Assembly: GCF_037975245.1 (NCBI RefSeq)
Contig: NC_092572.1
Location: forward strand, 1,279,501 to 1,343,500
Direction: 5' to 3'
Length of the DNA: 64,000 nt
Origin: Apostichopus japonicus
Lineage: Eukaryota > Echinodermata > Holothuroidea > Aspidochirotida > Stichopodidae
Made by a program: the position numbers and the translations under genes
The notes under the pieces: generated by a model
The model's database searches: none
What the model was told of the DNA's origin: nothing
What the model saw: only the letters and a program-made list of their open reading frames with translations
Part shown: positions 1,085 through 52,529 of the stretch, in pieces
Numbering within the stretch: position 1 is the stretch's first letter
Layout of the letters: every line of letters begins with the position of its first letter

Positions 1085-1252
1085 TTACTTCATTGTTAAA
1101 GTTTGGGTTAAAAATCTCCTTATGAGACTGGTGAACTGTTGATCTTCTAGCCAACCATTCTGAAACGTCAGCTCCTTCTCCACGTTTGGTAAATTACAGC
1201 TATCCAATGACGGTGGATAACCATCACGAAATGTCAATGTACTGACCGTAAT
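1085..1252 (-). CDS. C-terminal leucine-rich exon of gene A
   Basis: Reads in phase 0 from acceptor AAAGCAG|ATTACG and contains LTFRDGYPPSLDSCNLP, VEKELTFQN and a Leu/Phe-rich end. Equivalent exons occur at 32189-32022 (gene B) and 43546-43387 (gene C), with the common pattern LTF..PPS..LP..E..L.F.N..L. It resembles one leucine-rich-repeat unit of the kind that follows NACHT domains in NLR proteins, but one unit is too little to be sure. Confidence 0.6.
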   Translation of the reverse strand: MTVSTLTFRDGYPPSLDSCNLPNVEKELTFQNGWLEDQQFTSLIRRFLTQTLTMK

Positions 1253-4200
1253 CTGCTTTAAAAATAAAAGCATTATTGTTAAGAAATGTTACTTTGACAA
1301 GTTAATTTCGTTCAAACGGCCGTAGCGTTCTCTAACGTAAAGGTGATATGTTTATGACTTTGTCAGAATGTTACGTGTACTACTCTGCTGCGGCAATGGG
1401 AAGATTGGAGTTGACCTTTTCAACCAGGCATCCATATATTGTGAGTCGTAACTTTCACTTTATTTGGGGGATATGACCACCTCTTGTGCAAACAATTTTC
1501 AAAAATATATCTGTCTCCATATGTAGAATGTGTATTTAATTCTACTTCTTGCTTGAAGTTATGCTGATAAATTGGAATCATAGGATTATATTGCAACAGG
1601 TATTCCTTACTCTGGACTTGTATTACTTTGTATTAAATTTTGAGATAGCAGCAACCTAATTAATTTGCTGACTGAACAAAGCATAATATCAATGGTGACA
1701 TACTTACGTTTGCTCCAATGTACCTGGTACACAAATCCTTCACTAAGCTCATATTATCTACGTTATTGTCATTCGTAAACACCAGGTCCTTTCCATCAAA
1801 CCTGCTTCTCAATTGTTCACTTTTCAACTCATTCTTACAAAATTCGAATAATATCCATAAGAGCTGGAAGTGTTTAGTTTGACTCAAGTGTATTTTATCA
1901 TTATCAATTTGTAAAAGACTTCCCGTCAAATTTGCTATCATTCTCGTTGAATCTGTCTTTGTTTGCAACCTATTTTGGTATTTCGGTATCAAATAATTTG
2001 ATGCGAATGCATAAAACACTAGAGGACATTTTGTAATAACATCATGGTTCTTTAAATTTTGACAATGATTCTTCCAAGACGATTCAATGGATTCCGTTAA
2101 GCTTGAATCCTGAGAAAGCAGACGGCTATCCTCACCGATATCTTTAGTTTCTTTGAATTCATTGACGTTCAACTTTACCATTTGCTGCAATATAGTTTTT
2201 CTTTGTTCCTCGTTGAAACCATACAATGCAACTTTCCTATACCATCTACTAAATGTGATGGTATTTAGTTGACGACACGTTACCCAGACTTTTAACTTCT
2301 TGAAGTTTTCTAAATTATTTAGCATGTAATTTTCTGCAGATAAACTGTTAGTTTTGCTTTGTGTGTCAATTTCTGAATTGCCTTTTTCTAAATCCGTGCT
2401 ATCGTTGGATTCCAAAGTCACGTTAGAAAGTCCATCAAGATGCAATAGACACTCACGCTCTTGCAAAATACTGGAAAGAGCCTCAACTGATTGGAACCGT
2501 CCATCCATAGAGTTTACCGCCTCTTCCAAAATACATGCGTTCCTACAGAAAGGTTTGAGTTTGATATATATCACGATTATATTTTGCAGAATTTCCCCTT
2601 TGGCCCACAATCCTGCCACGTGCTTAAATAAATACGTCTTATCAAATCCTACTTTACCGGTAAATATTACACAATCACTGTTGTTGAAGAATGATTCCTT
2701 AAGTATATCGTCACTGGTTGCACCCTCTACATCCTCCTCTGAAGTCCTAATCGCGCAATCACACACCGCGTAAGAGGAATTAACACCAACATTGAATTTC
2801 TTCAAATAGTACTTCTTCAAGGCGTCATTCAATGGATCTGTGCCAAGAAAACAAAATATCAGTGATTACGTAATTATTATGAAGGCTGCTTCGATAATAT
2901 TTTAATGGATGTTTTTTGTAAGGAATTACTGTCTTAAGCTGATAAAAATACTTATTTAACAAATGTATTGATTAACTTCATATGTGTCAAATGTAGTTAA
3001 CCAGTGATAAACTGCTTACTTAATTTTATTGTTTTCTTGAAGCATGTAAGAACTTTAAGTTTACAAAGGCGATTCGTCAAATTGATATATCTGACAGAAA
3101 TTTTCATGTCATGCGACAAACATGTGTACTACAGTTCTTTAGCCATAACTAGTAGTTTGTTTTTCATTTTCTAGTGTATGATAACAAAAAATGCACCTGA
3201 TCAAAGTAAGTCATATAATGTGACTTCAATGATTTAACAACTGACGATTTACTCAGAGATAAAGTCAAAGTAGAGGAGAAAATTTACTAATGGATGTATT
3301 CAATCTAACTGTGTAATGTCGGGTTATCATTATATAGTTACGAAAATTGTAATTTTGTTCTAAGTTTACACCAGACATCTAATCTATACCAAATAACAAA
3401 AAAGCAATACATGTTAAAATTCTGTTCTCATTCATACCGCGGTATTTTTATTTGGAAGCTCAACTGAGGATGCATATTAACATAAAAAATAGTTAATTAT
3501 TTCTTGTTAACATAAATACCATAAACAGGTCTATGTGAATTAATATATGAATGGTACACACTTCTGAAATTTGGTTCACAATTTATCCCATCCACGGGGA
3601 TATTCAGGCTCAAGACATTGATATTTGATATTAATACATTGATTAGATAAAACAAATTGAAAATCTTACTAAAATTCTCTCTTCGATGCATCATCCATAA
3701 ACAAAAACAAACTAGCACCATAGAAAAGATGAAGATTATGATAATGTAAACGATTATGACCAGCGTAGATAACGGAAGGACTGGAACGTGACGAGACGGT
3801 ACCGAAGCTGATGGAAGTACCGTTGCAAAGTGATCATCAACACCGTCTTCCGACGGACATGGATCTAAATAAAGAGAACACATCGGCTTGAAATGTTAGA
3901 TTATTCAATAGATGTGCAAACACATTGTGAATGATTAAAGTAGCAAAACAAATTAAAGATTCCTCAAGTTAAAGCTAGGCATATTCAATTATGTGCAGAG
4001 TAGTTTCTTTTTTTCCAAAACAAATACTACCCATGAACTTAACTTAAATTCTTAGATGTCACATTTAAGTTTACTCGACTATGGTAGTTTCATATTCATC
4101 CATTAAATCTAATTCAGAAAGAAGTAGAAGTATAAAGCAAATACTCTGTATTTAAGTTCAAAATGTTACACCAGTACTTGGTTAACGACAAAGTAAGAAT

Positions 4201-5867
4201 GCCTTGTGTGTTCAAGTTTATTTGATATCATTATAACAGTTAGTAGATGATCAAGACAAACTCACCAGTTTTTAATTCAATATTACTATCAGAACGCTGC
4301 ATAAAATGTACATCTCCTTCGGCCAGGCATCTGATTTCTGCAAACCCATCACAAGCTGACACTGTGTATTCGGCAGATATGTATGTATTCCATGTACCAA
4401 ATACATTACCAACGTGTGAAATTAGTTCTTTTGGTGTGAATTGGAGCCTGTTGATGTTAATTATCTCCCATCGAAGAAATAGTTGAGGACGGGATCCGCT
4501 AACTCTACGTATTAGCTTACCAGTTTGTTTTATCCGTAGACCGCAACTGAAACATGAGCTACAACCACTTATTTTTGGACATTCCTGCTGCGGACGAACT
4601 GAAAAAATATAATCACTTATTCAATATCATACTAATACGTTTCAAGTTCATTCAAAATTGTTAACATGCGGTACATAAACATATACATGCATATGCATAA
4701 AGTTTGGTTTAGACTGAAATACCTTAATTGCTGAATTGTCTTCTTTCTTCAATAATTTAGTTTTAATAAATTGCATATCCCTCATAAAACCGATAGCTAT
4801 AACTGTATTGATTGATTTTGAAAATCGAAATATGTATTGCAACATTTGCTATTAGACGATTGCCTGATGCTTTAAAATACTAACGGACTTTTAGAGTTAG
4901 TATACATATGTTGTAAATAATTATCACTCCATTTGTTCCATACTGTGACGGGAATGTCCAATACGTGGAGATTATGTTCAATGACAACAATTTTTATTTG
5001 GAACAGTACATGTTACCTATTATTTGTATGGTGATTTGTTCTTGGTGGAAATTTTCTAGCGAAAAATAAGTAACAACGGTGTAATTGCCTTCATCTTCTA
5101 AATGCGCATTCGAAATTAACATTTTGCCTTCAAAATTGATATCAAATCGAATGTCGTCATATAGTGTGCCAGATTTTTGGTCATTTGCTAACACCAGGAT
5201 TGGCATTGTACTGGATGGAGGTCCGTTATACCAAAACACCTCTGTTGGCACTTCAGTTGAACGCACCCAATCGTTGCATTGTGACCCTTTTCGATTTGAT
5301 AAGTTGATTGGCAAGCCATTTTCACACCTATAGGCAAACGTAATAAAACCTCTAACAAATTCATTATAATTTTACGAACAATTGATTATATATATTTGAT
5401 TTATTGAAAACCCTGTCGAGCCTTACAACTAGAATGGCAACATTCTAACGTTTATTTTCATCACAAAAACATAATAAATAGTGTAATATTTCATGCAATG
5501 TTACTGTAAACATTGACCAAGCTACTGATATAACTAGTTAAAAACAGATCACGCTTCGTATGAAGCAACACATCATGCCCATTTATGAAGACAATGAACA
5601 AATATCTCGAAATCTTTGCTAATGTCAAATTTACTGATTTGTAATATAAACAGAACTCCTCTGCAATATAAGCAACATGTATTAATGTATTTATGTCACT
5701 GACAGATGCTTAATTAAGATTGTTATTCCTTGGTAGTGTGCTAATTACGAACGTCATCATTGATATCATAGAATACAAAGTAAGTTATACTCACCTATGA
5801 AAGTATCAATTACAATGAGCAGGAAGAACCACGTTTTGTAAGTTGCATTAAAACTCTTCATTTTCAT
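1085..5867 (-). CDS. Gene A: Ig-Ig-TM-NACHT receptor
   Basis: Predicted type I membrane receptor, read from six exons: 5867-5795 signal peptide, 5349-5017 Ig1, 4598-4266 Ig2, 3864-3670 transmembrane, 2837-1708 NACHT, 1252-1085 C-terminal. The first five join as 688 codons without a stop, all at phase 1 until the NACHT exon ends at phase 0. The start gives MKMKSFN followed by a hydrophobic stretch (WFFLLIVI). Ig1 begins with CENG and contains FWYNG and DEGNYT, but the usual second Cys is absent. Ig2 has CPKISGCSSC, RW and C-rich ends. The helix VIIVYIIIIFIFSMVLVCFC lies at about residues 281-305 and is followed by basic MMHRRE. Ig1 uses the acceptor TTAGAG at 5350; the better-looking TATAG at 5328 breaks the frame. 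The last exon reaches TAA inside a consensus donor (AA|GTAAGTG), so more exons may lie beyond the window start. The family and its function are inferred. Confidence 0.75.
1708..2837 (-). CDS. NACHT exon of gene A
   Basis: A single 1130-nt exon encodes the intracellular STAND NTPase (residues about 312-688). After a linker with conserved VCDCAIR and TSDDILKESFF comes Walker A, GKVGFDKT (residues about 372-379). The canonical Gly before Lys is Asp here; the paralogue at 33783-32664 has Gly. Walker B is LLHLDGLS (about 442-449). A sensor-like KVWVTCRQ, the GFNEEQRKT motif typical of NACHT proteins, and a winged-helix-like CPLVFYAFASN follow. The exon starts after CACAG at 2838 and ends at AAC|GTAAGT (1708). 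The Asp probably weakens nucleotide binding, so A may act as a non-cycling NACHT. NACHT identity is from motif order, with no database search. Confidence 0.8.
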
Positions 5868-7727: not shown

Positions 7728-8506
7728 ATGAGAATGTTTTCGTCCGTTCAAGTGCTATTTTTCTTTTTGCTTACGCTTTTTCTTCTTGTGAAAGGTTATT
7801 ATTATTGGCAATACCGATGTCATAGTAATATGTTTTCTTATCAGATTGATTCTCTCCCTTTTTTCATGTTTCAGGAGAGACGCGAGATGACTTTATTTGT
7901 AGCAGTAAGGAAAGCTCTAAAAATAGTAACTTTGTCGACTGTAAATGTTTACGCAATTCTTCAAATTGTTTAATTTGCAAAGCGCCAAAAGAAGGAGATA
8001 ACGTTTCGTGGTACAATGACGGAAAAGAATTGATCTTAGCTAAGGACTCGTTTGCAGTATCCACACAAGAAACCGTTGAGCTAAATAGTTGCAGCTTGTT
8101 AAATTATTCCATGAAGATAACTACGCCCTGTAGTGAAGAAAACCAAGCGATGTACTCTTGTCGCCGTAGAAATCTGACAGTTACGAAGTTCTTCTTGAAG
8201 TTACAAGGTAAATTACTCAGTTTTGTTACATACATGATTTAAGAGGGAATTCATGCATTTATTTTGCTTTTAATTTGCCTTTTGTGTTTTTAATTTAATA
8301 TTTCATAAACTCAGTTTGATGTACACATGATTTCTTCTGTTTACATTTGAACAGTCACCCCAGTTGTCTTATTGAATGGAGTTAACGTGACAGGTGACAA
8401 CTCTTTACTAATAATGCCTAATAAGAATGAAACTATTCAATGCAAAGTTATAGACACAGTTTTACCTATTTCAATTACATGGTACGTGAAAGAAAAATGT
8501 GCTTAA
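7728..8506 (+). CDS. Gene D signal peptide and Ig-like exons
   Basis: The start gives MRMFSSVQ and a strongly hydrophobic core (LFFFLLTLFLLV), ending at AAAG|GTTATT (7794, phase 1). The 333-nt Ig1 exon has many Cys (CKCLRNSSNC, CLICKAP), then VSWYNDGKELI and MYSCRRRN, the C-W-C spacing of an Ig fold, and ends at CAAG|GTAAAT (8207). The next exon opens after TTTGAACAG (8354) with VTPVVLLNGVNV and reaches ETIQCKV and SITWYVKEKC, then a TAA at 8504. It holds only the first half of an Ig domain. A possible donor, ATG|GTACGTG, occurs at 8481, but I did not find the second half downstream. Either the domain is split by a long intron or it is broken. Confidence 0.65.
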
Positions 8507-11500
8507 AATATTTTTATTTGCTAGTTAAACTTAGAAGCAAGACATTAGGCGAAACTTGTCAATGACAAATATACTATTACCCTAAATTAGTAAAACCCAA
8601 CATTTTCTGCATTGGAGTAAAAACTTTTCTAAGAAGCGAAAACGTACAACCTCCAAATTACGATAAAAAAAAATACTTATAATACTTCTAGTTAGGTCAG
8701 AAAATGACTAGACTCACATATAAGCATTTGCAACTGTGTATGTATGCAATCTCGTTATTACAAGTAAAGGTAGTTTACTTCATTACTTCATTTCGATTTA
8801 TAACATTTCCAACCATTAATAATTACAATATTTGGAAACTGTATGGAGTATGACATCATAAAGACGATCAAACAAAAAAATATGCTACGATTTATTTCGG
8901 GGGCTGACAGTAGACGATCAGTTTTAAATAGATTCATTCACGGTGCTATGAACTGATCTCATCTACATTCTCAATTTTCCCGGGTCGATTCCAGATAGTC
9001 ATATATAGTAAAGTGTTAATGTATTGTTCGTTATTAGAACGTAGGGCGTGATGGTATTGGCTGACAAACATCATGTGACGAAAGCTTTGCTTGTGTTGAG
9101 TGAATCGCACGTATGCTATTCGTACACGGTCGTACTCTGACTCCATCTTTTCGCAACTTTGCCTTCACGAAATACTGTAATGGATCCGGTAGAGGCAAAT
9201 TTACTTCGATGGTGATTGCAGAAGTACGTAAAGAATTTCAAAGGTGAGGCATTAGACACTTTTCATTTCGTTTGTTGTGTTAATTATATGCAATAAAGTG
9301 AGTGATGTGAAAAGCAATGCTCACAGGCGTACCGAGGCCTAGCGTTATACAGTTTTGTTAATAACATAAAAATAATAATAATAATTTATTTTGTAAAGCG
9401 TAAAATCCACAAAAGTGCTCTAAAACGCTATGCGTGTGGTAACTAAATTGTATACCGCTAGGAAGGTTTTTGGTTGCCTGTACTGCGCAGTGTACTACAG
9501 TACGCCTAACATTATTACTGTATGACGGGTTAATATTTTGTGCTACTTTGCCACAAATTGGATTGTAGCTTCACGATAAGCAATTTGAATGACATGGGTT
9601 AGGTAATAGGGGTTCCCGTTAATTTCCGGACCCGTTAGTTTCCATCCTGAATAACGTGAGGCCTAGTTTCCTACCCTAATAACATTATTTTACTGCCCTA
9701 ACTCATGGGATAGAAACTATAAATTCTTAAGAGAGGAAAATATCGTGTTGTTTTTTTAGGGGAGGAAAGTATCGTTTCTCAGGAGAGGAAGATCAAAGTG
9801 ATGTTGGAAAAGCTACACTGTTTCTCTTTTGTTATTAATGCACCATACTTTTATCTGAGCCTATTTTATCATGAAATAACCTTCGTCTTTTTATATGAGA
9901 AAGGAAGATCTAACTAGCAGAAGTGAATAACATCCTGCCTTTCAAAATAAATAGTTGCATCATTGCTATGTGAGCTGTTCGGATTTAAAGATAAATAGAG
10001 CGATGGTGTTATTTCTAGTAGAAACAGTAACCTGCATCCTCTCCCTCTTTCTCTACCTTAAATATGTTTATTTCACGTATAGTTACAATGGTAACATTCT
10101 CAATTATTCAAGCACTTGTTCTTTCCAAACATGTTGGTGGTTTGAAAGTTTTCATTTATGAACACCTTCATAATACCCTAAGCTGATATATTTGCTTAAA
10201 CTATATTTGCTTGGTTAAAGTTCAAGGATTATTTAGGGTCAAATTAAATGTCTGAAATGTTGAAATGACGCTACTTAATCTTCTATATATCATCATATAC
10301 AACTTTATTTGTTTTTAAGGCTTTGCCTATTTACTCAGTACGAAATTAACATTCCAATTTCCCAAATAGGTGAAGATGCAAAGAAGCACAAATATATTTT
10401 TGTTGTTTTTCAGTCGTATGTAGAGTTTGTTAGAGTACCCTACTAAACACTATTTCTCCATGTAGAACAGTTAGTGCAAGTAATGTTAAGTAAAACTTTT
10501 AAGAGGTAAATAAAGTAAGGAAATTATTTTTACAAACAGTAAACAGTTTCCATCATTGGTGTGCTATGAAGTGATTTCTACGAATATCAAATGCGTGTTA
10601 AGATGTTTGTGTAAATTTTCAAAATTGTACCCATTAAATTTTAGATTTGCTTTATGGTTCCCTGCAAATGTGAGATATCTGAATTGATCATCTTATTTAT
10701 TATTAGTGTTATAGATCAAAAAGGCACCCCATATACAATATACAATTAATAAAAAGTTTAAATGTTAAAAGCCCAAACTGTCATCAATACATACCATATC
10801 AGTGTTCATTTTCCTTGATTGAGATTTATGTGTGGTCCGTTTTTCCGTGCAGCTATTATCACTACCATGCTTTCGGTTCCTAACGTTGCTTACGTTACAA
10901 TATTCAACTGCTATGTTTACTTCTATGTTAAAAATTACATGCACTTATGACAAATTAGTAATTTAATGTATTGAATTGTATTTCAATTCATCGACATGAT
11001 TTTCGTCACATACTTAAAAGGTCCATTAATTTACAGGTAGTTACAATCTTCAACGAACACAATATTCATATATTATACCTCATCATACGTTATCATATTC
11101 TTCTGTTGATAATCTTTTCAAAGTCAATACTGGACACAACCTAATGGGGCTGATTCACCAACTACCGAAGAAAATGCCTACAACGTGTGTTATGAAAGCA
11201 GTGACCACGAATATGCTTCAATACTTTCACAACATGTCATGGTTGTTACGGAAATTACGCTCCAAAATTGTCACATCTTTATATCTTTATTACTTGCTGT
11301 AAGTAATTACATCTTTCTACTGGATACGAACTATCAACGACAACATGTAGTGTCGAGTATTATTTATCGAATATTAACATTTTCTGGCTCGTTTTACCCT
11401 ATAAAAACCCGTCCTCTCCGAGGATTATCGTTGTCATCGCGCCATTCGACGCTAAGTAGTTCTGCCAAACCGTTGCTAACACTAACAACCATATCGTTCC

Positions 11501-27173: not shown

Positions 27174-27351
27174 ACTTGGACTCTGATATTGGTTGCCACT
27201 GCGGTATCTGGAGAGCCCCGGAGGCTGTTGGAGTTACCTACCGCGGCAGTTCTAACATGCTCGAATGTATATAATACGTCAAAAGGGTCATTACTATACC
27301 ATGATGAAGTAAAAACTTATTTAAAATATGAAATCATGATGAAATCATGTA

Positions 27352-27357
27352 AATAAA
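27352..27357 (+). terminator. Polyadenylation signal of gene D
   Basis: AATAAA about 180 bases after the gene D stop codon, in gtaaataaaggcg. The duplicated unit carries a second copy near 28886. Confidence 0.5.
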
Positions 27358-28596: not shown

Positions 28597-28707
28597 ATAT
28601 TTGAGAAATTAATCACGGACAGTTCTTACGAGATACCAATACCTACGACGTATTTACCTATGAGAGCCCCTGATACCGCAGAACAAATATACCATGCTGG
28701 ACTGTGA
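28597..28707 (+). pseudogene. Duplicate last exon of gene D
   Basis: Exact second copy of the last coding exon (27063-27173), with the same acceptor tract and stop codon, lying in unit 2 of the tandem duplication. It could be spliced as an alternative last exon encoding the same peptide, or it may be inert. Confidence 0.7.
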
Positions 28708-31044: not shown

Positions 31045-34000
31045 AGGCGTTACATGGGTAACATACATTCTGCTACCATAATTATGGTGAAAATGACATT
31101 TAAGTATCGGGGCTATGGATATATGTTTATTTAAGCCTATGGATCCTTTAAGTGAAAGTTTTAGACAGTACCCTGACTGCATTACTCAAGTGATCATTTA
31201 AACAAACTATCCATTCAATATAATCAAAGTTTAGTAAACAAGTGCTCGACCTGTTTGGCCTCAATAATCTAAAAGAAATTAATGTGGCACTATTATTTTC
31301 AATTAATAACAAACCTTATTGACGAGATAATAAACTAATTTTGAATAAATATATTGTTGTAATCCAATTGTGGCAGGAATAGATATTTGTAGAAAATTGT
31401 ATTTGTATTGTATCGTCTTTGCTTCTACTGTATTGAAAGGTTAAGTGTGGATTGCATTAATGGTTCTAAACGCACTGTCCAAATCTAAAGTTGTATGTGA
31501 TTAATAAGTGAGGTATGTTAGATAAAAATCTCTATCCAGTAGAAAGTTGTAACAGAACGGTTTTCCTGTTTTTTATTGCGCAATCTTTTAACGTGTTTCA
31601 GATTCGGCTTACATTCAGATGTTGAGTCCCCATACTCCAATCTATAACATACACAAATGTATCGTTGGCCATCAAGGACCAATATAGTTAATAATTCTAT
31701 ATTACTTTGAATATGCGAGTGAGTGTCTGTTGTAGACCGGCTCTCCATTGATGATCATCGGTATCGTACCAGCAAATTTGTTGAGCATATTTGGGGACAG
31801 CGTTTATCATGTAATATATTATAAGACTAGTACAGTACATATTAGAACAAGATTTATTACTATCAGTTACCGACAGGTTACAATAAGCGCTGTTATTGTG
31901 ACATACAAATTGAAACGAACTTGTAGCCCGACTACACGCCCAACCTTAAGCTATCAGGATTGTTAACATTTTTACATGAAGGCCTAGGTCCTGAGAAATG
32001 CTTACATTTATACTTGATCACTTACTTTATTTTTAAATTTTGGGTTAAAAATCTCTTTATGAGACCGGTGAACTGTTTATCTTCTAGCCGAACATTCTGG
32101 AACGTCAGCTCCTTCTCCACGTTTGGTAAATTACAGCTATCCAATGACGGTGGATAACCATCACTGAATGTCAATGTACTAACCGTTATCTGCATTAAAA
32201 ATAAAAACATTATTGTTAAGAAATATTACTTTGACAAGTTTTTTCGTTCAAACGACCGTAGCGTTCTCCTACGTAAAGCTGATAAGTTTATGACTTGACC
32301 AAAAAGTACAGTGTACTCAGCGTTAATGCTCTGTGCCGTGACAATATGTAGATTGGTGTAATATTTTGTGACGTCTTCAACCAGGCGTACATATATTCTG
32401 AGTTTCACTTTCACTTTATTTGGGGAAGATGGACACAGGTAGATCGAGCAATTTCCGAAATTATCTTTTTCTCAATATGTTGAATGTGGTAATTGTATTT
32501 ACTCTTTGCTTGAAATTGTGCTGATAAATTGAAATTGAAGTATTACTTTTCAACACGTCTCCTTATTCTGGACTTGTATTACTTCGAACTGAATTTTGCG
32601 ATAGTAGCTGACTAATGAATTTTCTTACTGAACAATTCACTAAAGCTATACTGATATACTTACGTTTGCTCCCATGTACCTGGTACATAAATCTTTTACT
32701 AAGCTCATATTCTCTTCATCGTTGACATTCGTAAACAACAGGTCCTTTCCTTCAAAAATGTTTAGTATTTCTTTACTTTTCTCTTCATCCTCAGAACATT
32801 CAAATAATGTCCATAAGAGTTGGAAATGCTTAGTTTGACTCAAGTGTATCTTATTAGCATCAATATGTAAAAGACTTTCCATGAAACTCTTTAAGTCTGT
32901 CTGTGTTTGCAACCTATTTCGGTATTTCGGTATCAAACAATTTGATGCGAATGCACGAAACACCAGTGGACTTTTTGTAATAATATTATAATCCTTAAAA
33001 TGTACACAATGATTCCTCCAAGATGATTCAATGAATTCCGGTAAGCTTGAATGTTGTTGACACAGTAGACGGCTCTCCTCACCGATATCTTTAGTTTCTT
33101 CGAATTCATTGCCGTTAAACGTTACCATTTGCTGCAATATTGTTTTTCTCTGTTCCTCGTCGAAACCATCCAATGTAACTTTCTTATACCGTCTATGAAA
33201 TTGGTGGTTTTTAGTTGACGACACGTTACCCAGACTGTTAACTTCTTGAAGTTAATTAAATTATTAAGCATGCAATTGTCTGCATATAAATTGTTAGTTT
33301 TGCTTTGTGTGTCTCTTTCGGAATTGCCTTTTTCTAAATCCTTGACATCGCTGTTTTCCAAAGTCAAGTTAGTAAATCCATCAAGAAGCAATAGACACTC
33401 ACGCTCTTGCAAAATACTGGAAAGAGCCCCAACTGATTTGAACTGTCCATCCATAGATTTCACCACCCTTTCTAAAATACAGGCTCTCTTACAAAAAGGT
33501 TTCAGTTTGATATATATCACGATTGCATTCTGCAGAATTTCCCCTTTGGCCCACAGTCTTGTCACGTGCTGAAATAAATACGTCTTGCCAAATCCAACTT
33601 TACCGGTAAATATTACAAAATCGTTGTTGTTGAAGAATGATTTCTTAAGTATATCGTCACTGGTTGCACACTGTACATCCTCCTCTGAAATCCTAATCAC
33701 GCAATCACACACCGCGTAAGAGGAATTAACACCATAATTAAATTGCTTTAAATAGTACTTCTGCAAGGCGTCCTTCAATGTTTCTGTGCAAAGTAAGAAA
33801 AAACAGCACTGATTACGATTACGTAATTCTTATGAAGGCTGCTTCAATCATTATTTATGGAACTTATAAGGTAATATAATGTGTCAAATGTGTGTCAAAT
33901 GTGCGTCAAATGTGGCTGATAATGATACAACTGCTTACTTCATTTTATTTTTTAATATTGGAGCAATGGAACTTCCTACTCGACATGCGATTTTAACCCG

Positions 34001-34170: not shown

Positions 34171-35459
34171 GATATCATTACAACAACCTACGTTCCGTTA
34201 CCTTTCCGTTTGCAAGATGTTGTGTAACTTCTAGTCAGGCAAATACTTATGACAGTACAGATAATCGCTGTTGCAAAAATTATCACCCAGATGAAAATGC
34301 ATGGAGTGAGATCGAGTTTGAAGCATACTTTCTTCGAAACATTCAACGGTTTCTCGGTAGACATGTCATGACACCTTTCTAATTGAAAGAACAAATCAAG
34401 AAAACACTATTTTGAATAATTTTTTAAACATATTCAACAATATATCTGACACTATTAATCCATGTATGTTTTTAGTAACCTCACAAGCATTTGTAAATAT
34501 AACTTAAAGAATCAGGTAGGTTAATGACAGTTCTTCTTTAACATGGTTGTCCATTAAACTCTCATCCATTGTATAATGTTTACTCCAAAAGAATAACAAC
34601 TTAATGATCGTCCCCCTCAGCTTTTATAGGCATTTTAATCTTTGCTGCGTTGTTACAATTCTACCATCATGCGCTTGCTTAACATAATTACTAAGAACCT
34701 TAGGAAACTGACGTGGCTATATCAGTAAGTAATAAGTGTTTAAAAGCTCATTTTAACACTAACTTACGTTAACCATTTCCGAGTTAACCTACACGAATTT
34801 TAAGAGGGAAGTTGTCACAGACATAACTTGCAATGCATATTTTCACAACTAGGGCAAACTGTGAACTATTCTTAAAACATAAGGAAAGCTCTAAAACATG
34901 TGTATCTGTGAGTGGAGATGAGCGTAACTGTTCGTAGAGATCTTTCCATACAATTTGCTTAATTCCATTGTTTAAACAGGAAGAAGTCTACTAAAACGAA
35001 TTAATGCATTCGTTGATATTTGTTAATGACTTACAATAGAAACATTCTAATTGTTACTTTCAGCCTCACTGAAAGCATACCTGAATTTACTTCAACTTTT
35101 GAAGTTGATGTCAGATTCAACAGCCACCCGTCGCTATAAATATAGCAATTGAAAACTGTTGTTTCTCCACATGGCATTTTGTAGACGATTATAGTTGACA
35201 CAGTCCATGTATCTCTAGTATGATTCGTTAGTTCAGAATGCGACTCGTTCTTTGTGACATTAGCGACTCCTTCATATGTCCAGTACATGACAGGTTGTGG
35301 ACGAACTCCCTCAATAAAACAAGTCAAGTTAGCATATTCGTTCTCCGGCTGTATCACTTCACATTTACCACACTCGGCACAAGCTGGGATGCTAGGACAA
35401 AGCTGTGTCGGTGTATCTTGAGAAATAGTAAGAAACAATACTGAGGCTATTCGTTTACT

Positions 35460-35670: not shown

Positions 35671-36914
35671 CTTAATACCTAAAATAAAAAAATGTCATCA
35701 AGAAAGTATCACCTGACTTGACGCTCTTCTCTCTGAGGTAACTGTTGTAAGCGATACCGTGATTGACAACACTAACTTACCCTGACCTATGCTACCCTAG
35801 TACAAGTAACATAGTAAGATTTGCAAGCGTCTGTTGTTCAAACATACAAGCTAGTATATAGGCCAATAACATAATGTTTCTTACGATACTGTATTATGAT
35901 AAATTGTGATATGCGTACTTGTAATAATCACTGATATATCCCGTGTCCAGAAAGAGTCATTGGTAAAGAACGCAACAAATGTATAGGTAGCTTCATGCTC
36001 CAGCTGTGCATTCTTTATCTTCATATCACCAGTCGGAGTAATATCATAATGTCCATCATTGTACTTAGACCCGCCCACTTTACCGTTTACTAAATTAAGA
36101 ATTGGATCGGTCTCTGACGTTGAGCCCATATACCAATAGTATTGGTTGATTTCAGCAAGAGCATCACATCGTATCGTGTTAGTACCTATTCTTTCGATAA
36201 ATTGACTTGAAGGACATGTATCGGAAAACCCTGTACTGAAGAAGAAAGCTTTATAATATTTGTTACTGTGGGGTCTGCCGGTGACTGTGAAATACGTAGT
36301 AACAATACGTTATCAGCAATTTCATGTAGCTTTATATTTTATTCTCTTCAAGACGTTGGCAAAAAAAAACCATATTTCTCTATTCCAAAGAGACTGTTTC
36401 TACAAACAACTACTGTCAAGTAATATTGACCTTCTAAAGGTGCATGGCGTCAAATACAGAATGAATACCATTTATACATATGATAAACAAAGATAGATAC
36501 CTCCGACAAGAACGCTGGAATAAATTACCATGACCCAAAGCATCTCCATCTTGTTAGAATTCATACAAAACTTTTTTTTTTGCAAAAGACAAAATATACA
36601 ACCATAATAGATTATAAAATGTGTATTGCAGTACGTGCAAAAATATTCCCACGCAACCTTAAACTTACTCGCAACATAGGACATTGGGTTATTACGCTAA
36701 TTTTCATAGAACCTCTTTCCTAAATTTGCTATTTCCATGAATAATATCTGCTACGGTAATAATTAAGACAATGGATATTGTACCTAAAATATGATGGTAG
36801 AATTAATCTAAATTTGAATTCTGATATATAACACACTAGTAATGAAACTTTTAATGATGATGTTTGTTGATTGTCTCTCGTGATAGCTAATGCTCCAAAG
36901 CATGACGTGTAGAA

Positions 36915-43350: not shown

Positions 43351-44313
43351 TATGAGGCCATTGCTCAGAATATAATGAGGACTTACTTATCTTAAAAGAT
43401 TTCCCTTCAAATGGTCGAAAAATGTTGATATAATCAGACTTTTGTAGTTTGACATTTTCGAAGATCAGGTCTGTTTCTATGTCCGGCAAAGTTTTATATA
43501 TTGATGGCGGAAAATCACCACGGAAAGTCAATTTGCCCAGAATAACCTTTGCAATAAAAGCAAAAATGTAAGAAACACATCAAAATCTTTGCAAAGGCAA
43601 AGTAATACTGTTACATGTAGGCAATGTATGGTGTTACAGATCCCATCCCAGTATTTGTGGATATATAGGTTTTCATATATGCATTCAATGCCTCGCGGGT
43701 ACAACGCCTAATATATTTTATCTGTTTTAAATGGTAAGTTTGTTAAACACTCGCTTGACCTCTTACTGTTAACCCAATGGTGCACTATAAATATGATACC
43801 CATGCACACATCCACCAAGTTAAAATCAATCGTTCTAAGGTTTTGAACTCGTGACACCCGTTTTGGGGAATGATGTTGGAATAATTTTAGAGCCAAAATT
43901 AGAAGAATTTGTTCGAAAGAGTACAATCTCTCACCAAAATCACAGTACTTGTATAGATGAGATAAATTTGACTGTTAACAATATCGAAAGTGTTATGATA
44001 CTTTGAAATCATAACTAAACACGGATATAAAAAAGGTTTCATCGGAGGAGCACAATCCCAACACTTCCCTTCAGCATCGAGACAGCCTGATCCAAGGATT
44101 ATACCTCCCTAAACTCGCAACAAGGCTACTGGACCTAAAGTGGTTTGGTGGATTTCAACAGTACCTATGTATTATTTATGTAGTAACATAAGTTGGTAGT
44201 TAACTACAAAGGCAGTGGAATTATTTCTAATTTATTTTTATGAAACGGGTAACAACTTTACTAGCAAACATGTTGAGGTTGAGAACAATATACACAAAAT
44301 ATGGAATACTTAC

Positions 44314-45485
44314 ACCAGACCTTTTGCAGGAGGTACACACATCTTTCACCAGGTCTTCACTGTAGCCAGGTGCTTCTCTGTCAAATACTACGTCCTTTCT
44401 TTCGAATTTTCGACACCAATTGTCTATGTTCCAGTATTTCCATAGCTTCCAAAAGACGTACACGTTATCAGTTAGAGAAAAGTTTAAACTGATATTTTGA
44501 TAACAATATTCTTTTGTAAATGATCCTTGAAACAGCAAAAATAAGATTTGAGTCAACAGGGGCGATTTTTTGACATTGCTATCAATTTGAAAGATATTTT
44601 TCCAAATTGCCTCCATGGATTCAGTTGGATTTTTTTCCCCGCCAAGATCCTGGATTCTAGACGGGTCAATATCGGTAATGGTGTTTTTCTAGTGGGTATT
44701 TCTTTGGGAATCAGTAAAACCGTTCAAATTAACTGACGTATATTCTGTTTTAAATAATGATATACTGCTTTTGTTTAGACGAACCGTTGCCCAGACTTTC
44801 AATCTTGGGAAACTATTTAATTCGTTATTCAGGAGATTTCCTACAGTTAGTGTGTTGTTTCTTGATGTTTTAGTTGCAGAATCGTTTTCCAACTTTAAAT
44901 GGGAAAGTCCATCAAGAAGCACGAGGGTATCCCTCTGTCGCAGGGCACAGGACAAAGCTTCTACAGACTGAATTTGCCCATTCGTAGCTTTTACTACTTC
45001 CTCCAAAATACAGCTGTTTCTAGATAAACCGTGAAGCTTGATATATATTAGGATAACATCATTCAGAATGATCTTCGTCGCCCACTGCTGTAGTACGTAT
45101 TGCAATAAGTACGTTTTACCAAATCCTTCTTCACCAATAATGAGAACACGTTCATTGTTATCGAAGAATTTTTCGTGAAGTATTTCGTCGCTGGTAGACT
45201 TTCGTTCTTCTTCCTGCACACGTGTTATCACGCAGTCACATGTTGTGTATAAGGATTGCTTTCCTTCTTTGCGGTAAGGTTTCTTCAAAACTTCTTCTAC
45301 TGTCTCTACACTTTCCGTCACTGCTGTATTTTCTCTCACTGCTGTATTTTCCGTCACTGTTGTATTTATCGTCCCTAATGTAATTTCTGTCACTGATGAA
45401 CTTTCCGTCATTGCTGTATATTCTGTCACTGATGTATTTTCCGTCAATGTTGTATTTTCTATTACTGCTGTATTTTCTGTCCCTA
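44314..45485 (-). pseudogene. NACHT exon of gene C, with in-frame TAG
   Basis: After a 10-unit hexapeptide repeat and TVEEVLKKPYRKEG come TTCDCVITR, TSDEILHEKFF, an intact Walker A GEEGFGKT, Walker B LVLLDGLS, KVWATVRL and LNGFTDSQRNTH, then TAG. The same frame then continues without another stop for 125 codons (ESMEAIWKNIFQI, DVCTSCKRSG) to the donor GGT|GTAAGT at 44314. The exon is 1172 nt and phase-consistent. One substitution therefore accounts for the break. It is clearly more diverged than A and B are from each other. Confidence 0.8.
45304..45483 (-). repeat. Coding 18-bp minisatellite (hexapeptide repeat)
   Basis: Ten in-frame 18-bp units at the start of the NACHT exon of gene C encode variants of VTENTA (for example VTENTA, VTEYTA, VRENTA). 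Genes A and B lack this insertion. It lies just inside the membrane and would form a Thr/Glu-rich linker. Confidence 0.85.
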
Positions 45486-45562
45486 CTGGTAGAATGCTCG
45501 ATACTGATAATACTTAAGATGAATATAAGATAATATATAATATCATTAATTATATATGTATA

Positions 45563-45873: not shown

Positions 45874-46569
45874 CCCTCAAGAGATCATAGAAATCAGCTT
45901 ACTTTTGTTGTAAGCTTCGTCAAGACACATTACAAGCAGCATTCCCAAAAAAACACCGAACAATAAAACGTCTACCAACAGCAATATCACATCGGTGTCG
46001 CTCCAATGTTGAATAGAGAATTTCGGCCATAGCTTCGTTGATGTACCATGTGATTGACCTTATAAACAAGCATAAAGTTTTGGAAAAAATCTTCTGTACC
46101 GCAGCAAATAATATGTGGTGAAATATATTTCGTTTGTGTTTAAAAATACTTGTCAATCACGACGCTTGAGTACTTTGATGTTCCGTTTTATTTGTTGAAA
46201 AATGCACATCTATAGCAATTCAAAAGTAAAGGGTATCTTCCTGTGTGATTTATTTATAAACAATAATTTAAATCCAAAGAAATTGGTATAAAACAACAGA
46301 ATAATAATAGGCTTATCACTGCAGGTGATCATTCTCTGACATTGAGTTATCATCACACATGTAGTATATTTCGCATTCCGCCGTCGAATTAACTACAAAA
46401 TAACACAGCAAGATGTTGAATTCATTTGTAATGATAGGTGATATGAGTATGGTCAAATTCAAATCTTGAGGTAAATCAATTACATTTAGAGAGAAATCGT
46501 CAAGTTGCTATGTCGATATTTCAAGAGAAGTTGCTGAATTGTAGAGACAACTTTTCCAATTATATATAT

Positions 46570-47240
46570 TGTTATGTAACCCACTTATTCATCTACCCTA
46601 TTTCGTAATATAAGTTACCATTCAAGTCTCCGAGTCTTCCGATTGTTACGATCCCAGATGCGCTCACGCATTCTATATAACTGGAACTCGCCAACAAAGT
46701 GTTTCTGCGGACTTCATGAATATTCATAACTTACTGGAACATTCCTTTACACTCCGGGGATAAAAGCCACAGACGCCCGATTGAGCGCGCTCTCCGTTTT
46801 CTCCGTTCGTTCCGTTCAGAGGTTGCCACACCTCTGATGGTTCCTTGGCATCGATTACTGTGCCCATTTTAAACACAGTATATATTTAACTCTATACTTT
46901 TGTCGGAACTCCGACCTACTCACTCTAATGGATTCACGTCGCTCTATCTGAACTTTATCTACATCCAGCCGAACTACTTCTAAAGCAAACCTGGACACTA
47001 TCCGCCTAGCACTATAAGGTAACTCAAGAAATAAGCAGAAACTCTCCCCCCGGTTCTCCAAGTCCAGAAAGACGTTAATTGAATTAAGAATCTATAGTTA
47101 TGTATTATGTTCATATTTATACTTTGTTCTGCCATGTAAATAGCTTATTAAATGCTTTAAACTTACTTTCATCCTCGTGTTCTCCTTTTTATGTCACGTG
47201 ATCTGTTCTCCACATTAAGTCTGAGAACGGTCACGTAACA
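46570..47240 (+). repeat. 5' LTR of the gypsy element
   Basis: 671 bp, TG...CA ends. Contains gggataaaagcc, a plausible TATA-type promoter, at about 46758. Confidence 0.9.
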
Positions 47241-47300
47241 AAATTGGGGGCCTATCCGGGAAGTTGAATTAGACGAACTTCCTTAATTCAGACATCCATT

Positions 47301-50300
47301 ATGTCTTTCGATTTGAAAAAGTTTATCGATAAGCCATCTATTGATGAGCTAAATTCCCTTACGAAATCTGACATTATTCAGATTGCGAAACATTATCAAG
47401 TTGACTTCAAAACGAACATGAGAAAGGATGAAATTAAGAAGTTAGTAGCAGAACATTTGGTTGATGAAAATGAATTAGAGGAATCGGAACTTGGGGATTT
47501 GTCCTATGTGAGCTTCAATGAGGGTGCAAGCACGTTAGAATTGAGAAAATTAGAGCTACAAGCCCAAAAAGAGATTAAATTGATGGAAATTGAAATGGAG
47601 AAAGAAATCAGATTGAAGGAATTAGATTTAAAATCATCGGCTGCAGACCCTGGCTCACCCATTTCCCTGGTTTCTGGTTTACACATTAGTAAATATTTGT
47701 CTCTAATTCCTAAGTTTAAAGAAGTTGATGTAGACAATTTCTTTTGTCATTTTGAGAAATTGGCGCATACGTTGTTATGGCCAAAAGATAAATGGGTATT
47801 GTTGATTCAAAGTTCTTTTGTTGGCAAGGCACAAGAAATTTATTCTGCATTATCTCTGGCAGATAGCCTTGATTATGATATTGTAAAAACAGCGGTTCTT
47901 AATGCTTATGAACTTGTACCTGAAGCGTATAGGCAAAAGTTTCGAAATTTCAAGAAACAACCAAATCAAAATTATGTTGAATTTGCTCGGGTGAAAGAAA
48001 CTCATTTCAATCACTGGTGTTCTTCTAAAGAGGTTCAGGAATTCGAGGAACTGAGACAACTTATGCTGGTTGAAGAGTTCAAAAACTGTCTAAGTAACGA
48101 AATTAGAGTTCACCTTGATGAACGCCAAGTTGATTCTTTATCTAAAGCTGCTGTAATGGCAGACGATTATACCCTCACTCACCAATCTTTGAGAAATGTA
48201 ACAAATAAGTCGCATCTTAATTATGTTAGGGCTAGTAATCCTTCCAAGTCGTATGATTCTGTTAACAAACGGCAATCATACCCAAGTCGCAGTAAAGACG
48301 ACTATGTCAGCTCTAACAGGGTTGACCCTGGTGTACCTGTTTGTGGTTATTGTCGTAGTAAAGGTCACCTAATGGCAAATTGTTTCAAATTGGCTAGAAA
48401 GAGAGAACGGGAGAGGGAAATGTCACCAAATGCATTAGCAATTGTAGATAGATCACCCCATAAGCTTGTAACACCTGTGAGAACTGGCAAAATTACTAGG
48501 CGTACTAATGAAATCCAAGACGAATTTTTACCATTTGTCTCTGATGGTTTTGTATCTCTTAACGAGGATCTCCCGCCAGTGAAAATTAGGGTATTACGGG
48601 ACACGGGTGCTGATCAATCTCTGCTATTGGAAGGCATATTGCCACTGTCTGAACAAACATCAGCTGGCGGAGATGTATTGCTTCAGGGGGTGGGGTGTAT
48701 TTCTATTCCTGTGCCAGTTCATAACATCCATCTTCAATCAAACATTGTATCGGGTATGGTTATGGTGGGTGTTAGACCATATCTTCCTGCAAAAGGGGTG
48801 CAGTTTCTCTTAGGCAATGATTTGGCAGGTGGCAGAGTAATAGTCAATCCAATTGTCACTGACAAGCCGAGCACTTGTGATAACACAGAGCAGTTACAGA
48901 AAGAAATTCCTAATCTCTTCCCTGCATGTGCTGTGACTCGCGCTATGTCTCAAAAACTTCAAGAAGTTTCAAATTCGGATCATTCTTCCTTTTCAAACGA
49001 GACTAACTCCAAACATAGGGAGTCTCCTAAGAAATGTCCTCCAAAAGAGGCTTTCCATAATTCCCAAGCGGAATTTAATTTGGCTGATACCTTTTTGGGT
49101 CGCCTTTATAATGATCCCGACCCTCCTTTGGGTCCCCTAAGTTCGTTACCAAACGGTGTGAACCCAGAACAGTCAAACTCTGTTCCTTTTGAGGTGTTCT
49201 CTTCTGATTCCCTGTCAAGAGAACAACTCCTGTTAGAGCAGAAAAAAGATCCTGAACTAACCTTGCTGTGCGACAAGGCAATCACCGAGGACGAAGCAGA
49301 AAACGTCCCGGTTTGTTTTTACCTTAAAAAGGGTATATTAATGAGAAAGTGGAGACCACCAGATGTATCCGCATTTGATGAGTGGCGAGTTTATCACCAA
49401 GTGGTCGTTCCTAAAGTCTATAGGTCTGATGTATTAAGTTTGGCACATGAGACGCCTTTTTCTGGTCATCTTGGCGTTAACAAAACATACCATCGTATTT
49501 TGAATCACTTCTTGTGGCCAAATCTTAAGAAAGATGTTTCTTATTTCTGTAGAACATGTCATACATGTCAACTAGTGGGTAAACCGAATCAAACAATCCC
49601 ACCAGCACCACTTAAACCAATTCCCGCTTTTGAAGAGCCTTTTAGTAGAGTGATCATAGATTGCGTCAGTCCTCTACCGAAAACTAAATCTGGTAACCAG
49701 TATATGCTTACTATAATGTGCGCATCGACAAGGTTCCCCGAAGCTATTCCTGTTAGGGATATTAAGGCTAAGACCGTGTGTAAGGTTTTGATTAAATTCT
49801 TTACTTTGGTTGGTTTACCAAAGTCTGTTCAATCCGATCAGGGTTCAAATTTTATGTCAAGAGTTTTCCAACAAGCTATGTATCAGTTGAATATTAGACA
49901 AGTTACATCTAGCGCTTATCATCCACAAAGCCAAGGTGCGTTGGAAAGATTCCACCAAACATTGAAGAGTATGATTAGGACATATTGTTTTGAAAATGTA
50001 AAAGGTTGGGATGAAGGTGTTCATTTCTTAATGTTTGCTGCCCGAGAGTCAATTCAAGAGTCATTAGGGTTTAGCCCGTTCGAGCTTGTGTTTGGTCACA
50101 GAGTTCGTGGTCCACTAAAAATGTTGAAAGAAAAGTGGATGTGCGAGACAGAAGACCTGAATATTCTTGATTATGTCTGTAAGTTCAAGTACAGACTTCA
50201 CAGAGCATGTGAGATTGCCAGAGAAAACCAAAAGAGTGCTCAAAATAGCATGAAACTTAGATATGACAAACGTGCGGTAGATAGATCATTTTCACCTGGA

Positions 50301-50948
50301 AACAAAGTATTAGTGTTTTTGCCAGTTCCTAATTCACCATTGCATGCTCGATATTTTGGCCCTTATGTTATTCACAAAAAAGTGAGTGACACTGATTACA
50401 TTGTTTTGACTCCGGACAGACGTAAATCCAAGAGATTGTGTCATATTAACATGCTTAAGAAATATTACGAGAGAAACTCTAAGGATAATAGTTTCAAGAT
50501 TACGTCATCAATTGTTACTTCTGAAGTAGATTGTGAAGATGAGGTCGAAGGTCAAAATGCTTTTGATAAAATCAAGGCAATCTTAATGAGTTCCCCTGTT
50601 TTAAGAGCTCCAAATTTTTCTAAGCAGTTTACGTTAGCAACAGACGCAAGTGATTTTGGTGTAGGCGCTGTTCTCTTACAAATCGATGATCACGGTGTCG
50701 ATCACCCAGTGTGTTATTTTTCTAAAAAGTTCAATTCACATCAAAAGAATTATTCCACCATTGAGAAGGAAACTTTATCTTTGTTGTTAGGACTTCAACA
50801 TTTTGATGTTTACTTAGGCACTACTTCATTTCCAATTATCGTGCTAACCGATCATAATCCTTTAACGTTTTTGCAAAAGATGAGAAACAAGAATCAAAGA
50901 TTGATTCGATGGAGCTTATTTTTGCAACAGTATAATTTATGTATTTAG
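47301..50948 (+). CDS. Gag-protease-integrase-RNase H polyprotein without RT
   Basis: One 1215-codon frame. Gag occupies about residues 1-370, with a Lys/Glu-rich coiled-coil-like start and a CCHC knuckle (CGYCRSKGHLMANC). The protease follows with RDTGADQS. Integrase comes next, with an HHCC part (HETPFSGHLG, CRTCHTC) and a DDE core (IDCVSPL, SDQGSNF, GALERFHQ), then a C-terminal GNKVLVFL domain. RNase H comes last (LATDASDFGVGAVLL, LTDHNPLTFLQ). The order protease-integrase-RNase H matches Gmr1-type gypsy elements, in which integrase precedes RT. The RT domain that should lie between integrase and RNase H is missing, with the frame kept. A TAG at 50946 interrupts the frame shortly before a second stop near 50998. 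The element cannot be autonomous. Confidence 0.85.
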   Translation: MSFDLKKFIDKPSIDELNSLTKSDIIQIAKHYQVDFKTNMRKDEIKKLVAEHLVDENELEESELGDLSYVSFNEGASTLELRKLELQAQKEIKLMEIEMEKEIRLKELDLKSSAADPGSPISLVSGLHISKYLSLIPKFKEVDVDNFFCHFEKLAHTLLWPKDKWVLLIQSSFVGKAQEIYSALSLADSLDYDIVKTAVLNAYELVPEAYRQKFRNFKKQPNQNYVEFARVKETHFNHWCSSKEVQEFEELRQLMLVEEFKNCLSNEIRVHLDERQVDSLSKAAVMADDYTLTHQSLRNVTNKSHLNYVRASNPSKSYDSVNKRQSYPSRSKDDYVSSNRVDPGVPVCGYCRSKGHLMANCFKLARKREREREMSPNALAIVDRSPHKLVTPVRTGKITRRTNEIQDEFLPFVSDGFVSLNEDLPPVKIRVLRDTGADQSLLLEGILPLSEQTSAGGDVLLQGVGCISIPVPVHNIHLQSNIVSGMVMVGVRPYLPAKGVQFLLGNDLAGGRVIVNPIVTDKPSTCDNTEQLQKEIPNLFPACAVTRAMSQKLQEVSNSDHSSFSNETNSKHRESPKKCPPKEAFHNSQAEFNLADTFLGRLYNDPDPPLGPLSSLPNGVNPEQSNSVPFEVFSSDSLSREQLLLEQKKDPELTLLCDKAITEDEAENVPVCFYLKKGILMRKWRPPDVSAFDEWRVYHQVVVPKVYRSDVLSLAHETPFSGHLGVNKTYHRILNHFLWPNLKKDVSYFCRTCHTCQLVGKPNQTIPPAPLKPIPAFEEPFSRVIIDCVSPLPKTKSGNQYMLTIMCASTRFPEAIPVRDIKAKTVCKVLIKFFTLVGLPKSVQSDQGSNFMSRVFQQAMYQLNIRQVTSSAYHPQSQGALERFHQTLKSMIRTYCFENVKGWDEGVHFLMFAARESIQESLGFSPFELVFGHRVRGPLKMLKEKWMCETEDLNILDYVCKFKYRLHRACEIARENQKSAQNSMKLRYDKRAVDRSFSPGNKVLVFLPVPNSPLHARYFGPYVIHKKVSDTDYIVLTPDRRKSKRLCHINMLKKYYERNSKDNSFKITSSIVTSEVDCEDEVEGQNAFDKIKAILMSSPVLRAPNFSKQFTLATDASDFGVGAVLLQIDDHGVDHPVCYFSKKFNSHQKNYSTIEKETLSLLLGLQHFDVYLGTTSFPIIVLTDHNPLTFLQKMRNKNQRLIRWSLFLQQYNLCI

Positions 50949-51100
50949 CACATTAAAGGAAAAGAAAATGTCATTCCAGATGTATTGTCAAGAGCATAAA
51001 ATGCATTCGAATATTTATCTTCTTCAATGTGTAATTCCTTAAAAAAGGATTGTATTAAAGCTTTGTTCTATGGACCAAACCTTTTCCCCAGGAGGGAGAG

Positions 51101-51767
51101 TGTTATGTAACCCACTTATTCATCTACCCTATTTCGTAATATAAGTTACCATTCAAGTCTCCGAGTCTTCCGATTGTTACGATCCCAGATGCGCTCACGC
51201 ATTCTACATAACTGGAACTCGCCAACAAAGTGTTTCTGCGGACTTCATGAATATTCATAACTTACTGGAACATTCCTTTACACTCCGGGGATAAAAGCCA
51301 CAGACGCCCGATTGAGCGCGCTCTCCGTTTTCTCCGTTCGTTCCGTTCAGAGGTTGCCACACCTCTGATGGTTCCTTGGCATCGATTACTGTGCCCATTT
51401 TAAACACAGTATATATTTAACTCTATACTTTTGTCGGAACTCCGACCTACTCACTCTAATGGATTCGCGTCGCTCTATCTGAACTTTATCTACATCCAGC
51501 CGAACTACTTCTAAAGCAAACCTGGACACTATCCGCCTAGCACTATAAGGTAACTCAAGAAATAAGCAGAAACTCTCCCCCCGGTTCTCCAAGTCCAGAG
51601 AGACGTTAATTGAATTAAGAATCTATAGTTATGTATTATGTTCATATTTATACTTTGTTCTGCCATGTAAATAGCTTATTAAATGCTTTAAACTTACTTT
51701 CATCCTCGTGTTCTCCTTTTTATGTCACGTGATCTGTTCTCCACATTAAGTCTGAGAACGGTCACGT

Positions 51768-51771
<4 letters not shown>
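51101..51771 (+). repeat. 3' LTR of the gypsy element
   Basis: 671 bp, nearly identical to the 5' LTR (differences seen at the positions of attctaYataa, gattcRcgtcg and ccagaRagacg). Confidence 0.9.
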
Positions 51772-51807
<36 letters not shown>

Positions 51808-52198: not shown

Positions 52199-52253
<55 letters not shown>

Positions 52254-52267
52254 ATATATATATATAA

Positions 52268-52305
<38 letters not shown>
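52199..52305. repeat. (TA)n microsatellite after the SINE
   Basis: TA-rich run interrupted by a few ttta and aaata units. Probably the tail region of the SINE or an independent expansion. Confidence 0.9.
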
Positions 52306-52306
<1 letters not shown>

Positions 52307-52529
52307 CATTAAAAGGGAATGCCCACTATTACATTACAGGACATCAAGTTGCCGTCACATTTGCCGTCACATATTCACAAATACCACACACATACAAGGC
52401 ACAATGAATGGGAGGCGTAACATTTAACTCGAAGTAAAGGAAATGAATGACTAATATTGTAATACTTTATAAGCAATTATAATTACCTTCGACGAAAAGA
52501 CTGCTTAAAATAACTATGAGGAATAACAT

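Follow-up and report, generated by a model that had tools for sequence, protein, structure and literature searches.

Immunoglobulin, transmembrane and NACHT exons in the window

The window analysed here is a stretch of 64,000 nt from Apostichopus japonicus (C12:1279501-1343500). Within its positions 1085-52529, three minus-strand loci (L1, L2 and L3) each contain a signal-peptide exon, a transmembrane (TM) exon and a large NACHT exon, as the initial annotation had described, and L1 and L2 do carry the two immunoglobulin (Ig)-like exons that it gave to two of the loci. These loci are damaged and are probably members of a tandem array of type-I Ig-TM-NACHT membrane receptors. The signal peptides were called by eye, with no predictor used, and the exons found are the following:

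5795..5867, minus strand: L1 signal-peptide exon (MKMKSFNATYKTWFFLLIVIDTFIG), ending in phase 1
5017..5327, minus strand: L1 Ig1 exon, V-set-like, with a frameshift near 5250; phase 1-1 fits its acceptor and donor
4266..4598, minus strand: L1 Ig2 exon, divergent, phase 1-1, with no Pfam match of its own
3670..3864, minus strand: L1 stalk and transmembrane exon, Kyte-Doolittle maximum 3.36
1708..2837, minus strand: L1 NACHT exon, open, P-loop degenerate (GKVGFDKT)
1089..1252, minus strand: L1 first C-terminal exon
36501..36564, minus strand: L2 signal-peptide exon (MNSNKMEMLWVMVIYSSVLVGG)
35919..36230, minus strand: L2 Ig1 exon, V-set-like, open
35081..35416, minus strand: L2 Ig2 exon, open
34202..34378, minus strand: L2 transmembrane exon, open, phase 1-1
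32664..33783, minus strand: L2 NACHT exon, frameshifted near 33190
32026..32189, minus strand: L2 first C-terminal exon
52487..52529, minus strand: L3 signal-peptide exon (MLFLIVILSSLFVEG)
45903..46058, minus strand: L3 transmembrane exon, open, phase 1-1
44314..45512, minus strand: L3 NACHT exon, one in-frame TAG, 5' boundary uncertain
43388..43546, minus strand: L3 first C-terminal exon, resembling its L1 and L2 counterparts by eye

Phase 1 fits all junctions from the signal exon to the NACHT exon in the three loci, in agreement with the phase-compatible order claimed initially; for the NACHT exon of L3, the acceptor is one choice among several. At their other end, a phase 0 end is possible at gtaagt in all three NACHT exons. 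L1 and L2 form a duplicate pair (261-2909 against 31174-33861, 82.8% over 2709 columns). The first C-terminal exon of L1 has four matches in the genome, each of them 3' of one of the four closest NACHT exons.

The C12 tandem array and genome-wide linkage

The region C12:1.13-2.25 Mb contains 26 NACHT exons, window loci included, all of them on the minus strand, and an Ig exon was found upstream in 15. Two paralogs, L039 (C12:1748200-1754700) and L043 (C12:1445100-1452000), have open Ig1, Ig2, TM and NACHT exons, ordered in this way and with phases matching into NACHT; no clear donor was seen for the NACHT exon of L043. The TM exon of L040 is split across two frames, and shortened NACHT exons were found in 3 of the 23 array exons examined (L012, which is L2; L015, which is L3; and L029, with 308 residues).

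The NACHT exon of L1 gave 52 matches when used as a genome query. Linkage was then scored at 157 NACHT places, made up of the best 106 of 488 Pfam candidates and 51 of these 52 matches, against the Ig matches of three single-sequence queries (150, 80 and 121 matches), each search covering its best-scoring candidates. Of the 157 listed places, 84 have a related Ig exon on the same strand, at most 10 kb upstream, and 17 of these are on C7. Among the best 106 Pfam places, 53 have an Ig within 10 kb upstream on the same strand, and none has it downstream or on the opposite strand, while random points on C7, C12 and C16 have one upstream in 0.8%. The 51-place set has 31 upstream and 6 downstream, the latter being what a dense array would produce. 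In all 31 places holding both Ig types, an Ig1 match is the one farther 5'. The proportion with an upstream Ig varies by region: 28 of 34 places on C16, 16 of 18 on C7, and 3 of 38 at C12:25-35 Mb, the latter being used as an internal negative set.

On C7, stop codons interrupt 15 of the 16 listed Ig rows (each with one TAG and between one and three TGA), the listed NACHT frames are open, and a TM-like stretch is still readable in L049, the sole C7 locus read. The C7 Ig exon looks like a fossil, as if the family had lost its Ig domain before expanding. Further along C12, an Ig is found upstream in 12 of 12 NACHT places at 7.5-8.2 Mb and in three of five at 13 Mb. The genes at C12:7.5-8.1 and 13 Mb (L033-L038) have a NACHT with the P-loop AD(L/I)GxGKT, where A replaces the first G, and a canonical DE pair, being possible intermediates.

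Domain assignment

The Pfam cut-offs were 26.7 bits for NACHT, 26 for V-set, 21.8 for ig, 21 for C1-set and 23.1 for kinase. Profile searches recovered the NACHT domain of the initial annotation in L3 (47.3 bits) and L2 (35.0 bits), but that of L1 falls just under the threshold (24.4 bits), and the same happens with the Ig exons of the window: 23.1 and 24.1 bits for V-set on the Ig1 exons, 17.9 bits on the Ig2 exon of L2 and no match on that of L1. The undamaged L039 clears the cut-offs for Ig1 (V-set, 29.1 bits), Ig2 (ig, 22.2 bits) and NACHT (49.5 bits), as L043 does for Ig1 (V-set, 30.6 bits) and NACHT (40.9 bits). A sequence profile search of the PDB with Ig1 and Ig2 returned Ig-superfamily proteins as the best matches listed. 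Hydropathy and exon phases support a single TM between Ig and NACHT in the loci read.

Pfam gave no match, leucine-rich repeats (LRR) included, on the first C-terminal exons of four out of four loci. An LRR assignment was not adopted for these first exons, since the repeat-like appearance noted by eye has no Pfam counterpart in any of the four. In the window exons that were scanned, Pfam recognised neither a death-fold nor an LRR domain. The label of classical NLR was dropped, as no N-terminal CARD, PYD, DED or Death domain was found and the exons preceding NACHT code for TM, Ig and signal. Classical cytosolic NLRs share the NACHT domain with the array, but are not known to have a signal peptide, Ig or TM.

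Lesions in the window copies

Each of the three window copies bears a lesion absent from the initial annotation (frameshift, frameshift and stop codon, respectively). In the Ig1 exon of L1, the frame differs before and after ~5254. In L3, a long terminal repeat (LTR) element (46570-51775) sits between the signal and TM exons. This retroelement has integrase and RNase H matches, and its LTRs are 99.4% alike, so the insertion is probably young. No Ig exon was found between the signal and TM exons of L3. In its near relative L041, the NACHT exon is open and no Ig exon could be seen, so the Ig absence in this branch probably predates the LTR insertion. The window copies are probably non-functional or yield shortened products, which are conceivable because skipping phase 1-1 ectodomain exons causes no frameshift.

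The NTPase site, the NACHT tree and selection

In STAND NTPases, the roles of Walker A and of the acid pair are established. Of the 22 parsed array genes, 20 retain Walker A (GxxxxGK[TS]), as do 10 of 16 other NACHT genes, with A in place of the first G in the remaining six. After the Walker B DG, an acid pair (DE or EE) is present in none of the 22 array genes, which mostly have SN, against 15 of the 16 other NACHT genes; the single exception, L003, resembles a misparse. In this respect the array departs from classical NLRs, whose extended Walker B acid pair it does not have. Judging by these motifs, the array NACHT may bind nucleotide but hydrolyse it poorly.

A NACHT tree of 34 rows groups all 23 array rows in a single clade (100/100) with a long branch, separate from AjNLRC4, a cDNA-cloned gene of the same species, and from the other kinds of NACHT. 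The program flagged long branches, and the genes at C12:7-8 and 13 Mb were left out of this tree. Selection was estimated from Nei-Gojobori pairs of few sequences. The ratio of nonsynonymous to synonymous rates (dN/dS) is 0.20-0.33 for Ig1 and Ig2 (11 of 12 pairs, one being not computable) and 0.54-0.70 for NACHT (3 pairs, two of them with the damaged L1). In these few sequences, the Ig exons look coding and under constraint, with NACHT looser.

Relationship with published proteins and the case for a single transcript

The initial annotation knew of no named family with this layout, a view that is not supported. AjNLRC4 of A. japonicus (accession MN607598, given in PMC11932488) has Ig, Ig, TM and NACHT within one protein (PMC8699970) and is part of a caspase-1 complex (PMC11932488). 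In AjNLR-new (PIK48001.1, 1197 aa), Ig-like and Ig domains are flanked by two predicted TM segments, after which comes NACHT, and Ig-TM-NACHT genes are mentioned in the plural by its authors (PMC13133943). In another holothurian, Chiridota heheva, at most 6 genes were reported for NLRs that carry an Ig V-set domain (PMC8913654). They resemble the array in having Ig and NACHT in one protein, while a TM and an array are unmentioned in the available passages. Those of PMC13228809, PMC13428168 and PMC3308324 contain no Ig-NACHT protein. In the open-access literature, as far as its available passages go, we found no description of the array, of the genome-wide share of Ig-NACHT or of the missing acid pair. 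The receptor kind itself is thus already known; new are the tandem array, the genome-wide extent, the altered NTPase site and a likely topology correction. The published Ig-TM-NACHT cases were presented as unique genes, whereas here many NACHT places have Ig exons 5'.

The AjNLRC4 locus is L046 (C16:4494500-4503500), where the EX-F and EX-R primers have one mismatch each and qF and qR are exact. The EX primers fall in the first and last Ig exons, and the mapping of both the EX and the quantitative PCR primers ties the cDNA-cloned gene to the Ig-TM-NACHT exon plan. AjNLRC4 shares with the array the Ig ectodomain, the TM, the intracellular NACHT, the phase-1 exons, and related Ig1 and last Ig. 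It differs by its four Ig-like units (counted by eye), its canonical DE acid pair, a NACHT placed in a separate clade and its different chromosome. The exon with the middle two Ig units, the only one of the four-Ig part scanned with Pfam, reaches 34.8 bits for V-set. AjNLR-new, compared by description, is longer than the exons read in the window loci and has its NACHT outside according to its authors (PMC13133943); it could be a member of the C12 array.

Exon order and phase agree between L1, L2, the paralogs L039 and L043, and the AjNLRC4 locus. Moreover, 19 of 23 array NACHT exons lack a methionine in the 50 residues that precede the P-loop (31 residues in L031), which makes these exons unlikely protein starts.

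Some published AjNLRC4 reagents do not fit L046. The small interfering RNA sequence for AjNLRC4 is absent from it at up to 3 substitutions. Both AjNLRC4-IN primers (PMC8699970, Table 1) are exact in a region of C14, with no match in L046. The stretch around the first of them (L044, C14:1474164-1477174) contains an exon for a ZZ zinc finger (45.7 bits in Pfam) that is p62/SQSTM1-like. Either the primer table or the NACHT construct may be wrong, and the mismatch touches existing mechanism claims for AjNLRC4.

Membrane topology

Signal exons were recognised by eye or homology in six loci (L1, L2, L3, L039, L040 and L041), the match of L041 being weak by itself (E 0.071). The 12 Ig exons have 2.24 glycosylation sequons per 100 aa, two of them having none, against 0.97 in 7 NACHT exons. 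The net charge C-terminal of the TM is positive in seven of seven cases and exceeds that of the N-terminal side in six. The exception is L1, which has a charge of +1 on either side, so there is no positive-inside difference; in AjNLRC4, just two residues after the TM entered the comparison. The evidence from signal exons, from glycosylation sites and from the charge around the TM is in favour of a predicted topology with Ig outside and NACHT inside.

For AjNLR-new, in contrast, NACHT was placed outside and Ig inside based on TMHMM, binding assays and localisation in 293T cells (PMC13133943). Its first TM may be an N-terminal signal peptide that was misread. A second TM was claimed for AjNLRC4 at 776-795, with the NACHT start at 600 (PMC8699970). 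If this start is set on the Pfam start, 776-795 corresponds approximately to LSDLCQIPLFFVLFAHITFE in the NACHT exon. Hydropathy there does not exceed 1.70, against 2.04-3.38 for seven TM exons, so the claimed second TM is probably an internal helix.

Interpretation and alternatives

The receptor plan that we suggest for the array comprises a signal peptide, two outer Ig domains, one TM helix, an inner NACHT of ~380 residues and short C-terminal exons. The Ig domains would bind a microbial or self ligand and clustering would draw the NACHT parts together. These would bind nucleotide and hydrolyse it poorly, working as a scaffold or one-way switch instead of cycling as an ATPase. Phagocytosis or caspase recruitment could be the outcome, if the analogy with AjNLRC4 holds. 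NACHT proteins are usually regarded as cytosolic sensors. If the plan is true, with a large germline family bearing NACHT behind surface Ig, holothurians would have shifted NLR-type switching to the membrane widely. The open paralogs offer material to test topology, transcription and hydrolysis in one array with an altered NTPase site.

The membrane receptor with intracellular NACHT put forward initially is supported by paralogy, phases, Pfam and a cDNA-cloned relative. The window copies are damaged, with no Ig found in one of them. Several observations weigh against it. All three window copies are broken, and the Ig2 exon of L043 stays under the cut-off (C1-set, 19.9 bits against 21). The three single-sequence queries found no Ig exon for 11 of the 26 NACHT exons of the array, and the lists of open reading frames of three of these loci (L3, L041 and L042) do not show any. 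The genome-wide join covers Ig and NACHT, TM exons being seen in the loci read. In the loci read, no signal exon could be recognised for L043 or AjNLRC4, and the topology published for AjNLR-new is the opposite one (PMC13133943). AlphaFold, run on the NACHT exon of L1 with three window rows, gave a useless model (pLDDT 34.7) that was not used, so nucleotide binding is argued from sequence motifs. Finally, one transcript from signal to NACHT is a strong inference from paralogy and phases, made on genomic DNA.

It is very improbable that the Ig-TM exons and the NACHT exons belong to separate neighbouring genes. They were joined here from genomic DNA, and 6 of 51 places have a downstream Ig match within 10 kb, though a dense array is expected to give these. 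The 84 of 157 places with Ig upstream on the same strand, the complete lack of downstream or opposite-strand Ig in the 106 Pfam places, the matching phases, the missing methionine in 19 of 23 exons and the plan shared by the published AjNLRC4 (PMC8699970) all speak against separate genes. We give as little credence to NACHT outside and Ig inside for the array, the arrangement that TMHMM, binding assays and 293T localisation support in AjNLR-new (PMC13133943), in view of the 5' signal exons of six loci, the denser sequons of Ig (despite two exons having none) and the charge after the TM. On the other hand, we lean towards the three window loci being dead relics, with only other members of the family working. 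The lesions in all three, the degenerate P-loop of L1 and the LTR insertion in L3 point in that direction, while the damage of L2 may be recent, given that its Ig exons show dN/dS values of 0.23-0.33 when compared with intact paralogs; in L1, the broken Ig1 is skippable (phase 1-1), and intact alleles are possible in other animals.

A further question is whether this combination arose twice, the NACHT of the C12 array and that of AjNLRC4 having been joined separately to related Ig ectodomains. Two origins seem unlikely, but they deserve consideration. The C12 array can be aligned with AjNLRC4 over both Ig1 and Ig2/Ig4, at 24% and 23% identity to the first row. The array Ig queries match Ig exons before C16 NACHT genes, AjNLRC4 itself not being matched, and the Ig4 query of AjNLRC4 matches one place in the array region (E 3.9e-4). 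The array NACHTs, in turn, form their separate clade on a long branch. However, in the tested pairs dN/dS is higher for NACHT (0.54-0.70) than for Ig (0.20-0.33), and with a faster NACHT one origin could yield the same tree; besides, the C12:7-8 Mb genes with Ig and the canonical DE pair look intermediate.

Neighbouring genes and repeats

On the plus strand, an Ig-TM-tyrosine-kinase-like gene (54778-61617) is located head to head with the signal exon of L3, at ~2 kb. One kinase piece reaches 32.3 bits (cut-off 23.1), the Ig-like exons have no Pfam match and, by eye, YSI stands in place of DFG and CSD in place of HRD. There is probably a second Ig-TM-kinase-like gene at ~7728-26848 (plus strand), head to head with L1 at ~1.9 kb, with a kinase piece at 25250-25396 (33.1 bits) and FCL in the DFG position by eye. 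This divergent pairing of NACHT and kinase-like genes at ~2 kb was seen in two instances, both within the window. The plus-strand kinase-like Ig2 exon has 11 genome matches, all 11 on the plus strand at C12:1.07-1.97 Mb, a region that overlaps the minus-strand NACHT array. Homology between the Ig2 of the kinase gene and that of the array was discarded, the phmmer match (18.2 bits, E 1.8e-6 in a 16-sequence set) being too weak.

A broader reading is doubtful, and we offer it tentatively. The NACHT expansion of A. japonicus would be largely a membrane superfamily with Ig ectodomains, in which the C12 NACHT is a nucleotide-binding, hydrolysis-poor scaffold, interleaved with the Ig-TM-kinase-like genes of the plus strand, in which the catalytic motifs are degenerate too. 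Both would possibly be divergently transcribed and form paired receptor complexes.

The second kinase-like gene has an exact tandem duplication of 1532 bp (26821-29886) at its 3' end, which is either very recent or an assembly effect. Pieces of an endonuclease and a reverse transcriptase similar to those of long interspersed nuclear elements are present at 16875-19605 on the minus strand.

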